From positions 2,505,802-2,543,245 of the forward strand of contig FN649729.1 of assembly GCA_000310025.1 (NCBI GenBank): a stretch of 37,444 bases of DNA, in the 5' to 3' direction. Shown in pieces: positions 13,110-34,290 of this stretch. The stretch comes from Ectocarpus siliculosus. Taxonomy: Eukaryota; Sar; Phaeophyceae; Ectocarpales; Ectocarpaceae. Below the pieces are notes generated by a model. That model was not told the DNA's origin. It did not search any database and saw only the letters and a list, made by a program, of their open reading frames with translations. The first letter of the stretch is position 1, and every line of letters begins with the position of its first letter. The position numbers were made by a program, and so were the translations under genes.

Positions 13110-16100
13110 CTACACGCAGTGACAGCAGTAGATGGTCTCACACCTGAACACCACCAGGTGCAGCAGTCCGGCGATCGGCACGAGGACCCCTACGGCGACC
13201 CCTCCCGACAGGCAGGCCTGCAGCCTGTTCTCGCCCCAATCGAGTGTGTCCTCGTAGAGATACTTCTCGTCTTCCGGGCCTTTGTAGAACCAAATGACAG
13301 AAAAGGCTAGGTATACCAGCCCGTAGATCTGGGCGAGAGAGGCGCAGGCGCGGAGGCGCGGCGGCGGGATGAGTCCGATTGGTTAAGAGCGTACCCGAAG
13401 TTCTGCCGCATTGACCAACGGAAAGCGAAGTAGACCAACGAGAGACCTAGGGGAGGGCACGGGTCGCGTGTGGATAGGATCGCTTGGACGAGGGGCCACC
13501 GCAGGTAAATACTGAGTACGCCGGCGGGAGCTGGGTTGTCACAAGAGGGAATCCCTCCACAGTCCAATCAAGCACTGGCACGCACGCCGGGGGAAAATCT
13601 TCTCGAAAATCTTGCAGGAGTTCTGCCGGGGAGAGGAAGCCTTCCGTGGGGGGCTTGGAAAACTCAAGTAGCACCCCCCGGAACATTGACAAAAAATACA
13701 GTTTTCCCACTGATGAGTTATCACAAGCCAAGGTCTCTACATCAGGCTCGTAGGAGCAAGAACCTCTGCGAGACACAGCTGAGAACGAAACATCGTTCGA
13801 CTGGCGAAAAAAGTCTTCACGTTCGCATCGGTTTGTACGTTTGTATCATCCAGCAGTTAAACGAGACGACATTCTCCACGGAGAGCTGCAGATGTTTGAC
13901 GGGGTTATCTGCGTTCCTCCCCCGCCGAGTGAAAAATAGAAAGCTCGCGCCCGGTACACTCTCTTTGGTTTGTTGTCGGGGGGGGGGTTCTAGGAGAGCC
14001 ATGGCATTCCCTGATTTGCGAGGTGGGACTAGCCAATCATGACGGTTACAACCGTTTCTCCCCGGTAGTTTCGGTCGAGTTTGTTCAAGGTGGTACTATT
14101 TTCTCACCTGGGTGAAGATCATGTGCCCCAGCTTGAACGTGTCCGCTATGAGCAACTGATCCACCAGCTGGATTTCGTCGTCGTTGGAAGACGAACAAGA
14201 AGACAAACGATGGACGGAAACGAGGGTGACAACTGTCAGACAAACGAGTTTTACCGCGCACCATGATTTGTTCGATCAACCACCACAGGCGCGCGTCCAC
14301 ATGCACAAGCACAAGAAACCGCTCCCACTTGGACAGAACCCTGAACCCTGATGGAGACGTACACACAAGTGCAGAGGCACGCGCGGCAGATACCATACAT
14401 TCACGATGACCCCGCCCACGCCAACCCTATCCCCTAAGAGAGTTGGCTGCGCGGCACACCTCCGAGTACACCCACGAAACCATGCAAGCGGTGTGCAAGC
14501 GTGGAGGGATGCGAGGTCAATGTACGGCATTCACGACTATGAGTATCCCCCCCCCCCCCCCGGAGACGTGGGAACTGAAGGATGGGGACGTGGTAAGCAA
14601 ACTAGGGAAATACCGGTGGGTAGGGAAGGCAAGAAAGGGCTTAGACCCGAAGAAAAGGGGGGAGGGAGGAGTCGGATTCCTGGCCAAGGAACACTTGTTT
14701 GACGTGTGGTGAAAACGGAGTTCGAGGAAAGCCTATGGCTTAAAATACCTGGGGAGCGGGGTGAGAAATATTTGTTTCTAGGGAACGTATACGTCCCACG
14801 GTCGTCGAAGAAAGTCGCAAGCAAGGCGCAGGAGAACTTCGGACAAATTGAGGAAGATGTCCAGAGGTTCAGTAGGAAGGGAGAAGGTGTCATGGTGGGC
14901 GATTTTAACTCCAGGGTAGGGAAAGCTTCCAGTAGAGGACAGGCGATAGGGCAGCACGGAGAAGACAAAGTGAATGACAACGGAGTGAGGATGCTTGAAT
15001 TCTTGGGAAGCAACGAGCTGATGGTGTTGAACGGTAGGAGGGAATGCGATAAGCCGGAGTTCACCAGGCAAAGGGCAGTTTGAAATGAATACTCGATCCT
15101 CGACTACATCCTGGTAGATAGGGGGAGCACACAAATCCCAGAGCTGCACGTACGTGCGATAGATATAGGTTCGACCGACCATTTCCTCATATGGGCAAAC
15201 ATCGACCGATCTAGAAAGACGGAGAGTAAGAAACAGAGGAAAGTGTTCCGGTGGAAAGTAGAGCGTTTGGGAGACGAGGGGACACGGGATGAATTCCAGA
15301 AAGGACTGGCTGGTAGTGTAGAACCCTTCAGGAAACTGCTGAGAAGCGTCGAAGACGGACATGTAGACGTACAAGCAGCAGGGGACAGGGTGATTGAAGG
15401 ATGGGAGTTCATAATGAACTTAACGGCAGAGAGAGTAGTGGGAAAGAAAGTGGTACGATGTGGGGTATCGGTTAAGTGGTGGGATGACGAGCTGAAAGAA
15501 GAAATAGGGGAACGTAGAGAAGTCTTCAAGCAGTACCTGAGTGAGGGGTCTGAGGAGAGTTGGGAAAAGTACAGGGCCAAGAGAAAACAGGTGAAGGGTC
15601 TAGTGAAAAAGATGAAAACGTGCATTTGGGGCGAAGTAGTGCAGAAGGCCAACGGAGGCCTGGAGGGGAACGCCAAGCAGATGTGGGAAGGGATTAGTGG
15701 GATGGTAACAAATACCGCGCAAGTGGGGGATATAGGGGTAGCAACTTTGCGAGGTGTGAACGGTGGACTAGTCAGCAGTGGGAAGGGGAAAAGGGAAGTT
15801 CTAGCAGGGCACTACAGGAGACTTGGAGTTCCTTCGGAGCTTTGACCGAGTGTTTAAGAAGGAGGTGAACGCATGGGCCCAGAAAGGAGAAGAGACATCG
15901 AAGGCAGACGTTGGGAACGTAGAACTGGAAAAAGAGTTCACTGAGGACGAGGTTGAGGCGTGTGTGAACAAGTTGCAGTGCCACAAAGCAGCAGGGGCGG
16001 ATGGGATCCGGTACAGACCCACATGAACTTTCGATCGCTCGTTTCCATGCCAAAAGCCTTTCTTCTGTTCGCAGAATTTTTCTTTTTTTCACCAAGGTAA

Positions 16101-19100
16101 TGTAAGTCCTTTTCCTTCCAGATGGGATATTAACTTGAATCGCTTTCAGATCTGCTGACTCCACATAGTAAGCTCGAGACACCGTCGCATATATCTCTTG
16201 TGTCCATATCTTTGATAGCAAAACTGACAAGAGCAGTCCAGCACTATTATCTTCGCTGTAGTTATCATCAAAGATTCCATAGCTAACTTGATTTTGTCCT
16301 TATCACTTTCCAAGTTGTATATGACTATCTCCGGGTGGACTTCTTGCAAGAGTTGAGTGCACTTTAAATCTCCCAGAGATGTCCTTACCAACCGTAGATC
16401 TCCATCTTCCGAATTGAATATAGCACACTCCAGACCTTTCCAATCCGCTTCAATAGCAACCTTGACATCTAAAATGCCCGCGGCTAGTAGGTTGCCTCCC
16501 CCCCCGCAGCAGAGCACCATGGCAGAAGGTTGATATTCGACGGAAGTTGGAGTCATCAGTAGTGACCCATCCTGTGACTGGCAGTCTATCTAGTAAGGCT
16601 GCAGTGACCACTGCGCTGACCAATGGTTCATCATTTGCTGAGCCATCTTGATAAGAAATGTCTTTCACACCTAGATCACTGAGTAAAATTCCATCCAAAA
16701 CTGGACCTTTTGGACCTCTGAATGAAAGTTTAGTGGACAAATCATCTGGGGGGAAGGGAATGATCCAGTTGATGGTACTGCTGTACAACTGGGTGTGGAA
16801 AACGAGTATGCCCCAAGTAGATGGAGGGAAGGAGTGGTTGTGAACTTGTTTAAGAAAGGAGACAAGCCTGACCCAGGAAACTACAGGTGTTGAACACAGT
16901 AGGAAAAGTGTTTTGTAAATTGCTGAACGATAGGACAGTGGGAGTATTGGAGAAGGAACGTAGCATTAGTGAGGGCCAGGCAGGTTTCCGACAGAAGAGG
17001 GGGTGCGTAGACCACACATTCACGGTAGGGAGAATCATCCAAGGTAGAAAGAGGGCGGGAAAGCCGACGTACTGCTTCTTCCTGGACGTGAAAAAGGCAT
17101 ACGATACCGTATGGAGAAATGGGCTGTGGAAACAATTGTCCAAGTACGGGATCAAGGGGAAAATGTGGAGAGTGCTGAAGAAGAAAAGCGCGGTCATGCT
17201 AGACGGAGAACTGTCTAAGTTCTTCGACATTGAGCAGGGGGTCCCACAAGGTTGCACGCTGTCCCCAACTTGTTCCAGGTGTTCATCAACGATCTGTTGG
17301 AAGTCGTAGAGGCAGTCCGGAAGGGAGTAAAAGTAGGGGACACGGAAACTTCGGTGTCAAGAATACTGTTTGCGGATGATTTTGTTGGTATGTCGGACAC
17401 CCCTGAGGGACTGCAACTACAAATTGACGCGGCGAAGAAGTTTACTGATAAATGTAGATTGTCTGCCAACGTTAAGAAGAGTGCCGTCATGGTGTGCAAC
17501 GAGGTCAGGGAGGAACCAGTAGAACATAGATGGAAGTGGGGGATCGAGGAGATGGCAGTAGTGGACCAGTACACATACCTCGGAGTAGAGATCGCAAACG
17601 ACTGCTCGTGGAATGCACACATGTCCAAGGTAGCGGAAAACGGCAAAGCACGAGCAGGGAAGCTGCACCCAATACTCGCAAACCGGCACCTCGATACACG
17701 CATCAAATTGGCGGTTTTGAAGAGCGTAATCGTACCGCCGCTAGAGTACGCCGGAGAAGTATGGGAAGGAAATAAGAAGGGAGTGAAAGAACTCGAGGCG
17801 GCGCAGACGAAAGCAGCGAAAATCATCCTACGATGCTCCAAGCGCACAAGTAATGCAGCTGTAATGGCAGAATTGGGGATCCAATCCCTACGGTCGGGAA
17901 GAGACGCAAGGAAGCTGACATGGCAGTATCGCATGTGCGGGATGGGAGAGGAGAGGTTGCCGAGAATAGTATGGGGGGCGAAGTGGGCAAACAAAAAGAG
18001 GGGTAGACAACCCACGGAATGGGTCAAGGTTGTAGAGGACGTATGGAAGGGGTTAGACATCGACGAAGATGAAACGCTGGAAACAGAGGGTCTACAGGGG
18101 TTCAAGGAGAAGATATCTGTTGCTTGTGCCGAGAGAGAAGAACGGAATCTAAGGAAAGAAACCAAGGATAAGGAGGGTCTAGAAGTGTACGGAATGTTGA
18201 AAGAAGGAATAGGGTTCAAGGACTACCTACATGGACCAATGGATGCAGGGACAAAGCTTAAAGTCAAATTCAGGACCGGGGACATAGGCCTTCGAGAACG
18301 TCGACGAAGACATAGGACGGTAGACGACGAAGACGACAAGTTCAAATATGATTGCGGCTTCGAATGCGAAGACCGTGTTCATGCAGTCGCGGAATGTCCG
18401 TGGTACGAAGAGGAGAGGGAAGTGTACATGACTGAGCTGGGAAAAATACAAGGGACGTACAGGGAGATGTTTGAGGCATGAAATAGAGAGGAGAGGACGG
18501 TAGTTATACTGGGGAGTAGGAAGTGGTTTGAAAAGGCGGGAAGGGATATCGTTAGGATAGACAGACTAGGGAAGACATTATTGAGCCACCTTTGGCAAAG
18601 TAGGAAGGTACGATTGGCCATCGGTGATCGGTCCTGTGGGAACAATGCTCCGTCCTCTCGAGGACGCGTGGTCAATGGTCTACCCGCTAAGGCATGCAAA
18701 ACATAAGAGTACGCCCCCCCCCCCCCCCCCCCCCCCGAGAGACCGGTTTCATAGCTCGAGTGGTCTGCAATCGAGAGGGCACGTTGAGGCCGAAAATTGT
18801 GGGGAATTTTTGACATCTAGTCGAGAGCTTTCCTTGGAAGAGGTATCGGCCGATTCTCGCACCCTCTTGGTTGTTGAGGAATCGAGCTATGAAACTCGAT
18901 CTAGGGGGGAGGGGGGGGGCGTGCGATCGCTCGCGCAGTTACGGCCCTATGTTCTCGCAAGCAGCGCCGGGAGAAGAAACGCCACGGGCACCTATATTCG
19001 CGGGAAACGGGAACCCGAAAGCTTTATGTTTCTCACCATGAAGAACGCTACCAGGCCGTGAGCCTGAACGTCGAAGTTCTTGGTGCCCTGCCGAACCTGT

Positions 19101-32872: not shown

Positions 32873-32890
32873 CGACCTTGGTGAGGTAGG

Positions 32891-33300
32891 ACCTCCACAG
32901 GCTTTGGGGGAAAAACCTTGGTGAGGTCCCTCCGAGACGGACCTCCACAGGCTTTGGGGATGAAAACCTTGGTGAGGTCTCTCCGAGACGGACCTCCACA
33001 GGCTTTGGGGGTAAGGAACCTTGGTGAGGTCCCTCCGAGACGGACCTCCACAGGCTTTGGGGGTGAAAACCTTGGTGAGGTCTCTCCGAGACGGACCTCC
33101 ACAGGCTTTGGGGGTGAAAACCTTGGTGAGGTCTCTCCGAGACGGACCTCCACAGGCTTTGGGGGTAAGGAACCTTGGTGAGGTCCCTCCGAGACGGACC
33201 TCCACAGGCTTTGGGGGTGAAAACCTTGGTGAGGTCTCTCCGAGACGGACCTCCACAGGCTTTGGGGGTAAGGAACCTTGGTGAGGTCCCTCCGAGACGG
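32891..33300. repeat. 51/52-bp minisatellite, eight units
   Basis: Units start at 32891, 32941, 32992, 33044, 33095, 33146, 33198 and 33249 (ACCTCCACAGGCTTTGGGGG ... CTCCGAGACGG). Lengths are 50, 51, 52, 51, 51, 52, 51 and 52. Two alternating types differ by GTGAAAACC with TCTCTCC versus GTAAGGAACC with CCCTCC. The minus strand is open for about 200 codons, giving a 17-residue unit that changes frame at each 52-bp unit, so I read it as non-coding. Confidence 0.95.
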
Positions 33301-33739
33301 ACACAGGTGGCCGGTGGGGCACGTTATGGGAGGTTATGCCCGCGCATAACCTGCCCAGGTTGAATATACGCTGTATAACCTCTTCATGCTGAGTTACCAA
33401 CCGCCGGTTTTCTATCGGATTAGGAAATCAATTTTAACCTTGCCTTGTCGGGCTAGCAACCTCGATCCAAAACAAATGGGTGCAAGCTCGCCCGCAGCTG
33501 GGTGACAATCACCCCACCCAGCGACGCGAGCCTTCGCGTCGAGGCCAGGAACAATCCCACACAAGGATTACGAAGCACACACACAAGGAAGGAGTACACC
33601 ACACGAGGATGATTGATTGGGCCATAAACGAAAAAAAATATGGTACTCCCTCAGGTCCGAAACGTGAGCTCGATCGCGTAAGCCGGGGGATCCCGCACGC
33701 AGTAAAAAGTACGCCGGGGAGAGGGGCGAAATTATCTCG

Positions 33740-34290
33740 AAGGCGAATGACATGACATACATACGCGTAGTAAGGAGGAGGTCGAGGGTTCGATCCCCGC
33801 AAAACATACTTTTTTTCCCCAAAAAACCAACAAATTATACGCGAAATTTGAAATTTGAAATTTGAAATTTTCTCTCGAGGGCATAGGCATATGATAAGCG
33901 TAGTACGGAGGAGGTCAATACTTCGGTCCCCGGGAAACATTTTTTTTTCTTCGCAAAACCAAAAAAGTAAGCGCGAAATTTATCGCGAAGACGTATGACA
34001 AGCGTAGTTCTTGTAAGGAGGAGGTCGCGAGTTCGATTCCCGCAAAAAAACAAAAAGTTTTTTTTCCCCCCAAAACAACAAATTATGCGCGAAATTTCGA
34101 AATTTCCCGCGAAGGCGTAGGCATATGATTTGCGTAGTACGGGGGAGGTCGATACTTCGGTCCCCGCGAAAAAAAAAAGTTTCTTCCCAAAACCAAAAAA
34201 AGTAAGCGCAAAATTTATCGCGAAGGCGTATGATATGTGTAGTAAGGAGGAGGTCGGGAGTTCGATCCCCGCAAAACATGTTTGTTTTTT
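33740..34290 (+). repeat. Array of five alternating B-box-like (tRNA T-arm) units
   Basis: Five units of 105-133 bp share a GCGAAGGCGTA..ATG block, GTAGTA(A/C)GGAGGAGGTC, a T-arm-like core, then an A/T tract. Type A cores are GGTTCGATCCC (33787), AGTTCGATTCC (34030) and AGTTCGATCCC (34259). Type B cores are ACTTCGGTCCC (33920, 34154). Order is A-B-A-B-A, a dimer of about 235 bp. Type A matches the Pol III B-box; no A-box was found. Minus-strand frames here are typical translations of tRNA T-arms, not genes. Confidence 0.75.
33843..33870 (+). repeat. (GAAATTT)4
   Basis: Four perfect heptamer units inside the B-box array; single GAAATTT copies recur in the other units. Confidence 0.9.

Follow-up and report, generated by a model that had tools for sequence, protein, structure and literature searches.

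In a 37,444-nucleotide stretch of the genome of the brown alga Ectocarpus siliculosus (assembly GCA_000310025.1, contig FN649729.1, positions 2,505,802 to 2,543,245 of the forward strand; hereafter the window, numbered from its first letter), a long interspersed nuclear element (LINE) is interrupted by 739 bp of a decayed Ty3/gypsy-type Pol, a fragment that lies antisense to the LINE and is cut on both sides. The fragment itself is a dead piece, and the finding is the gypsy clade behind it, which carries a conserved but altered C5-cytosine-methyltransferase-like domain between RNase H and integrase. The domain lacks the Pro-Cys motif of the C5 enzymes in every copy in which the site can be read, and it is under purifying selection. 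On balance we favour the view that it is a non-canonical, probably non-catalytic module of Pol that would bind S-adenosylmethionine (SAM) and/or DNA.

A gypsy Pol fragment inside a LINE

The borders of the insert were defined by comparison with two other genome copies of the LINE (L161 and L162), the similarity to which ends at position 16007 and restarts at 16747. At the same spot these copies hold 21 bp, and the window holds 739 bp (16008-16746, minus strand) in place of them, with no target-site duplication. An initial annotation, made from the letters alone, had placed an antisense methyltransferase-like piece within the LINE reverse transcriptase at 16025-16745, which is correct to within about 20 bp. 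The insert has a G+C content of 44%, compared to about 52% for the window.

All genome searches were run on the alga's own genome (189 Mb in 492 contigs). A 147-amino acid (aa) frame of the insert has 37 matches there, itself included, and the best other match (59% identity, E 1.4e-39) is a 1943-aa open frame on contig 30, the C30 element. According to Pfam this frame contains, in order, RVT_1 (residues 472-633), RNase H (706-834), H2C2 (1394-1448) and rve (1466-1555), and at its C-terminus a weak Tudor-type match under the cut-off (PF21743, 1898-1927, E 0.0038). The domain region that we used as a 366-aa query spans residues 872-1237 and thus falls between the end of RNase H at 834 and the start of H2C2 at 1394. 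Positions 16012-16746 of the window align with this query in three collinear pieces of 53, 130 and 70 query residues, all on the minus strand: 16588-16746 corresponds to the stretch right behind RNase H (query residues 1-53, 74% identity), 16209-16589 lies in the other frame and holds methyltransferase motifs I to VI (56%), and 16012-16221, back in the first frame, holds the motif VIII region (60%). The alternating frames therefore imply two frame breaks, the number initially annotated; a TAG at the very edge of the middle piece in one alignment may fall outside the frame break and was left uncounted. In terms of the C30 Pol, the insert starts at residue 872, after RNase H, and ends at about residue 1123, before H2C2; it lacks the C-terminal third of the domain (motifs IX and X).

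Because nearly all of the insert aligns to the RNase H-integrase region of the C30 Pol, it is a truncated gypsy Pol fragment. A complete element nested in the LINE is ruled out by the lack of a duplication, by the position of both ends within Pol and by the loss of 21 bp of LINE. Of the earlier suggestion, the methyltransferase-like nature of the piece, its retrotransposon origin and its location in a LINE all held up, and only the nesting of an element did not. Given the missing duplication and the position of both ends in Pol, the fragment may have arrived as a piece of cDNA or DNA captured at a double-strand break.

The C30 query matched 70 pieces, which join (within 3 kb) into at least 45 places including that of the window, some of them represented by short pieces only. 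By similarity they fall into three main lineages. The C30 group has 8 places, which are 73-97% similar to C30 by piece, and the copy of the window stands lower at 58-72%; the other two, the C147 group (lineage ii) and a C98 group that also includes C3, C5 and others (lineage iii), show about 31-36% to C30. The Pol order reverse transcriptase-RNase H-integrase is present in the C30, C147 and C98 elements, and the domain sits between RNase H and integrase also in L018 and L025, one element from each of the other two lineages. Long frames pass through the domain in all three lineages (1943, 1807 and 1649 aa, one per lineage), and the C-terminal arm of C30 recurs in the same 1807- and 1649-aa frames. 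The genome search for intact copies proposed with the initial annotation thus returned relatives with long frames within gypsy Pol, methyltransferase-like domain included. A search of viral contigs in IMG/VR with one protein from each of two lineages gave 3 and 1 candidate stretches, none of which was confirmed.

The gypsy label of the C30 element rests on its domain order. One observation sits uneasily with it: no long terminal repeats (LTRs) were detected from 4.3 kb on one side to 2.7 kb on the other side of the element, a stretch that may be too short to include them. No aspartic protease was found by Pfam in the 1943-aa frame. Upstream of the C30 Pol lies a 724-aa frame (L009, L159, contig 30) that looks Gag-like by its CCCH-like cysteine motif, and by eye a chromodomain-like stretch precedes the Tudor-type match at the end of Pol.

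Affinity of the domain to C5-cytosine methyltransferases

The canonical motifs of C5 methyltransferases, whose numbering we follow, include Pro-Cys in motif IV, ENV in motif VI and GVPQxRxRxF (QxRxR) in motif VIII. On the minus strand of the insert, the elements quoted in the initial annotation occur in the expected order: the SAM-binding loop of motif I (VLCCGGGGNLL, 16485-16517), motif II (AIEADW, 16440-16457) and the IPSGRKR element within motif VIII (VNIPSGRKRTY, 16102-16134, where the C5 enzymes have GVPQxRxRxF). Between them are the positions of motif IV (PEIVIYNLES, 16305-16334, minus strand), a site taken by Pro-Cys in C5 methyltransferases and mostly by IGNAC in the two other lineages, and of motif VI (IIVLDCSCQF, 16221-16250, minus strand), at which C5 methyltransferases have ENV. 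A profile search of the window piece, suggested with the initial annotation as a check, found no methyltransferase in Pfam: the two core pieces matched no family at E up to 1, and the third gave one weak match to DUF7047. PADLOC returned for the piece the DruM cytosine methylase at E 0.064 only. Since the window piece alone gives no significant match, the link to C5 methyltransferases rests on its intact relatives.

These relatives, a set of 19 domain members (A1) used for the family searches, support the methyltransferase-like identity that had been proposed for the insert. First, the PADLOC model PDLC03270 is matched by 14 of the 19 (best E 2.3e-9), PDLC03234 by 15 (best E 5e-5) and the DruM model PDLC00026 by 10 (best E 8.4e-4), with a best value of 1.8e-4 for the C30 sequence itself. 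The coordinates are collinear (residues 131-325 of L018 on 59-250 of the model; 61-265 of L024 on 63-261). The members match 12 PADLOC models in all, each of them for a methyltransferase. Eleven of the 12 also appear in the 25 best listed for Dcm or for a bacterial C5 methyltransferase (L151), PDLC03355 not being among those listed. None of the 12 is among the 21 families that match the adenine methyltransferase Dam at E up to 0.1, and an adenine methyltransferase was therefore rejected. Second, a profile of the domain was compared to 28 bacterial C5 methyltransferases (Dcm plus 27 loci; of the 30 loci retrieved, L127, L129 and L149 were dropped by a motif filter). The best match extends from motif I to motif VIII with E 9.8e-9 (Z 1000), and the next has E 0.001. 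Third, profile-profile alignment gave a score of 48.2 (P 9.4e-6) over 277 columns, as against 13.6 for a column-reversed control and a maximum of 22.5 in 200 column shuffles. The block with motifs VI-VIII alone scores 43.9 and holds most of this signal; the motif I-II part (19.7) and the C-terminal part (17.2) on their own lie inside the shuffle range. Conversely, when the C5 profile was run against 611 open reading frames (ORFs) from the genome loci and the window, a set rich in the domain family, the top 12 consisted of 10 domain-bearing ORFs and the two host PF00145 exons.

In Pfam, PF00145 is matched by more A1 members than any other family (7 of 19, best E 0.012), and TIGR00675 (dcm) is matched by 3 of 19 (best E 0.04). 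We attribute to chance the matches to Seadorna_VP8 (2 of 19, E 0.01-0.02) and plsB (2 of 19, best 0.18), which are weak and stay under the cut-off in the cases that list one. A pseudogene of a host methyltransferase was rejected, as the scanned relatives sit in gypsy frames and the host PF00145 gene lies elsewhere.

Several results weigh against the assignment. No Pfam methyltransferase exceeded its cut-off among the 19 members, PF00145 at E 0.012 being the best, and no PDB sequence was matched at E up to 10 by phmmer or by profile search. The window's own frames reached only E 0.82 and 1.2 against the C5 profile, L011 of the C30 group had no PADLOC match at 0.1, and an AlphaFold model of the 147-aa window piece alone (mean confidence score, pLDDT, of 36.7) was useless and was set aside. 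Taking both sides together, the identification of the domain as a diverged C5-cytosine methyltransferase is well supported by sequence comparison and unproven on the side of structure.

Active site, selection and proposed role

Six motifs were read in 32 loci, with the motif IV position readable in 31 copies; these include the copy of the window as well as those of C53 and C129, which hardly differ and may represent a single element that was assembled twice. Across loci, the usual form of motif I is LCCGGGG or LG(C/R)GAGG and that of motif II (E/D)x(D/E)W. The best preserved is motif VIII (GIPTTKRRVF, GVPTGKQRVF, NIPSGRRRTY): with respect to QxRxR, the C30 lineage retains both arginines (IPSGRRRTY), lineages ii and iii mostly have Lys and then Arg at the last place, and Gln is replaced by Ser or Thr. 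In motif X, LPP, LAP or LPA is retained but GN is not; the C30 group has SN. The Pro-Cys of motif IV, correctly noted as missing from the insert at the outset, is absent from all 31 readable copies. Because of this, its loss is an old trait common to the family and not damage of the window copy. Likewise, no readable copy has the ENV of motif VI, although the Glu is retained in most (MESP, MECP, IECA and once MENP; the window has LDCS and L156 LQCP). The motif IV position differs between lineages. In the lineage of C30 and the window it reads VCNVE, VCNVG or IYNLE, and the aligned Cys is found in 0 of 8 copies, whereas the 23 copies outside this lineage mostly have IGNAC, with Cys in 20 of 23 (exceptions: L022, Asp; L029 and L155, Tyr).

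Selection was assessed by pairwise ratios of non-synonymous to synonymous substitution rates (dN/dS, Nei-Gojobori) over the domain in 58 non-independent pairs, the values at high dS being rough. The ratio lies between 0.15 and 0.5 in 45 of the 58 pairs. By lineage, it is 0.26-0.75 in the C30 group (plus 2.37 for L011-L017, on few changes), 0.12-0.96 in lineage ii and 0.16-0.66 in lineage iii, where L025/L027, L024 and L022 give 0.16-0.19 among them at dS of about 1.7-2.1. The domain is thus under purifying selection, with strong constraint over old divergence and drift among recent copies, as expected of a mobile element.

On the basis that motifs I and II and the region of motif VIII are retained, that Pro-Cys and ENV are missing from every readable copy and that purifying selection acts on the domain, we propose that it is a non-canonical SAM- and/or DNA-binding module of Pol, probably without catalytic activity, and we regard this as the likeliest account, though with considerable room for doubt. 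Non-catalysis is inferred from residues only. In such a role the domain is predicted to hold new cDNA or to help the neighbouring integrase, and the Tudor-type C-terminal arm beside it may read chromatin. Two observations run counter to this proposal: the Cys retained at the motif IV position in 20 of the 23 copies outside the C30/window lineage, and the within-lineage pairs with dN/dS of 0.55-0.96, or 2.37 for L011-L017, in a comparison made over the domain.

The first of these observations is the basis for an alternative that we consider unlikely, namely that lineages ii and iii have kept the domain as a working enzyme, with the Cys of IGNAC as the nucleophile and the element's own cDNA or RNA as the substrate, and that activity has been lost in the window lineage (YNLE/CNVE). 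This Cys aligns with the catalytic Cys of the C5 enzymes, a match that comes from the profile-profile alignment and needs one gap. Moreover, most readable copies have the Glu of motif VI and nearly all have the last Arg of motif VIII, and retrotransposon DNA methyltransferases (DNMTs) of the known kind are able to methylate CG de novo (PMC5890265). On the other hand, none of the 31 readable copies has a Pro ahead of the Cys or an ENV triplet, the CpG ratio of the whole window (0.96) gives no sign of methylation-driven CpG loss (the small insert alone has 0.58), and brown algae are reported to be without DNA methylation (PMC13076208).

Gypsy elements with and without the domain differ in the gap between RNase H and integrase. 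We determined this gap at 41 RNase H places with a paired integrase match, a chosen subset of 148 in which adjoining pieces were joined in a few cases. In the 15 elements that have the domain the gap measures 1678-2186 bp. It is 745-808 bp in another 15 that match the C-terminal arm of C30 and show no domain match, and 526-595 bp in the 11 that match neither. The arm-bearing, domain-free group (contigs 150, 227, 141, 156, 16 and others) has open frames of 1282-1598 aa, and its gap is still about 200 bp above that of the other gypsy elements of the genome. Where the match covers most of the query, integrases from domain-bearing elements are 61-100% similar to the one of C98, except for 51% in the C59 copy; in the 15 arm-bearing, domain-free elements the value is mostly 53-55%. 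Against a clean split, C85 and two places on C1, which are outside the 41-element count, have integrases 76-90% like that of C98 and no domain match with the 366-aa query; they may be broken or truly domain-free. The pattern would fit one acquisition inside the arm-bearing clade, or losses in relatives.

That other gypsy elements manage without the domain (gaps of 526-808 bp in 26 elements), that its catalytic motifs are gone from every readable copy and that the copy of the window and many others are broken would all suit a dead, hitch-hiking relic that merely spaces RNase H from integrase. We consider such a relic improbable in view of the frames of 1943, 1807 and 1649 aa that pass through the domain and of dN/dS ratios of 0.16-0.19 at dS of about 2, which are unlike those of a neutral spacer. 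Less probable still is that the domain is specific to gypsy elements and unrelated to methyltransferases, with a glycine-rich loop and an arginine motif that mimic them: the failure to reach any Pfam cut-off or PDB match and the concentration of the profile-profile signal in the motif VI-VIII block, with motifs I-II in the shuffle range, would agree with it, but the 12 of 12 methyltransferase models in PADLOC (11 shown to match C5 enzymes), the complete motif order and the low reversed, shuffle and Dam controls do not.

Surroundings of the insert, known systems and host methylation

The interrupted LINE is an ordinary one, a 25-aa stretch of it returning 100 genome matches. Ahead of the insert, 14703-16007 (plus strand) holds an endonuclease-like frame and the N-terminal part of the next frame, with a weak match to PF14529 under the cut-off (E 0.0016); behind it, 16747-18481 (plus strand) holds the remaining reverse transcriptase, with PF00078 at E 5e-17 and 4e-7 in two frames. 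An imperfect inverted repeat follows shortly after the LINE at 18711-18925 (34-nt arms, 79% complementary, 82 nt apart); long runs of C and of G flank it, and it is possibly a small palindromic element. A further C run lies near 14550, ahead of the LINE. Farther along the window, 32889-33302 consists of about 8 copies of a 51-bp tandem unit (93-96% matches) whose minus strand is open in all three frames, with repeats of the type GGPSRRDLTKVFTPKAC, and 33857-34276 of a 234-bp unit present 1.8 times (82% matches), with minus-strand frames of repeated peptides of the type NRTRDLLLTRTTLVIRLRDKF.

Among known proteins, the Druantia and type II C5 methyltransferases (the DruM and MTase_II models of PADLOC) provide the best profile matches to the domain, with collinear coordinates, and differ from it in that the match is weak (E 2.3e-9 at best), that Pro-Cys and ENV are absent here and that the domain is part of a Pol polyprotein. 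DNMT3L, a catalytically dead DNMT that acts through a partner as a host regulator, is likewise a degenerate C5-methyltransferase fold retained by selection, but it is not part of a mobile element.

Retrotransposons that bear DNMTs with conserved key residues are known from Symbiodinium and Klebsormidium (PMC5890265), which agrees with the remark in the initial annotation that such enzymes travel with retrotransposons in some algae and dinoflagellates. KnitGypsy-Dnmt3 of Klebsormidium nitens resembles the elements described here in having a C5-methyltransferase domain within a Ty3/gypsy Pol frame under purifying selection; unlike them, it is of the Dnmt3 class with its key residues conserved, whereas the present domain lacks Pro-Cys and ENV, is assigned to no class and occurs in a brown-algal host. 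SymbioDIRS-Dnmt3 and SymbioLINE-Dnmt of Symbiodinium are also multi-copy retrotransposons with a C5-methyltransferase domain (PMC5890265), but they are DIRS and LINE elements with conserved key residues, and in our case a LINE is the landing place only. Methylase-bearing retrotransposons in stramenopiles are mentioned in general terms (PMC6338049). A study of transposable elements in Ectocarpus describes a Tudor-bearing gypsy element, Gypsy-10_Ec32, and a Sola transposon with an N4/N6 methyltransferase (PMC12477816); its main text uses the word 'methyltransferase' twice, neither time for a gypsy element. The weak Tudor-type match in C30 (PF21743, E 0.0038), whose arm recurs in lineages ii and iii, is a likeness to Gypsy-10_Ec32, and the methyltransferase-like domain, which is not mentioned for that element, is a difference, the two being compared by description only (PMC12477816). 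As the Tudor-type arm recurs in the long frames of all three lineages, the domain-bearing elements may belong to the Gypsy-10_Ec32 lineage. In a literature search that extended neither to supplements nor to most subscription papers, we found no report of LTR elements with such a domain from brown algae or stramenopiles, and in the literature searched no conserved, catalytically altered methyltransferase-bearing retrotransposon for such a host.

As to the host, a PF00145 search of the genome yields two pieces separated by about 2 kb on contig 2, which we take as exons of one gene, presumably DNMT2. This would accord with reports that brown algae have lost DNA methylation and that DNMT2 is the only methyltransferase homologue left (PMC13076208). 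In Saccharina, however, about 1.4% of cytosines are reported as methylated and the methylation is ascribed to DNMT2 (PMC6916402), so the absence of 5-methylcytosine in brown algae is not undisputed. The EsV-1-7 family (PF19114), reported as expanded in brown algae (PMC7457493, PMC12477816), has 150 scored matches of 880 candidates in the genome. Because the PF00145 search does not find the gypsy domain family, published counts of brown-algal methyltransferases probably missed this group.

It is conceivable, though we would rate it as rather doubtful, that a gypsy clade has long carried an altered C5 methyltransferase in brown algae that otherwise have DNMT2 only, and that the lineages with IGNAC perhaps retain the ability to modify nucleic acid through a non-standard active site. 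If true, a selfish element would be the last holder of the DNA-directed form of this enzyme fold in its host. In the clade described here the fold has been kept by selection after its standard catalytic residues were lost. With a host group reported to be without DNA methylation, and with arm-bearing elements in which the domain is not detected, a non-catalytic role of the fold becomes directly testable.

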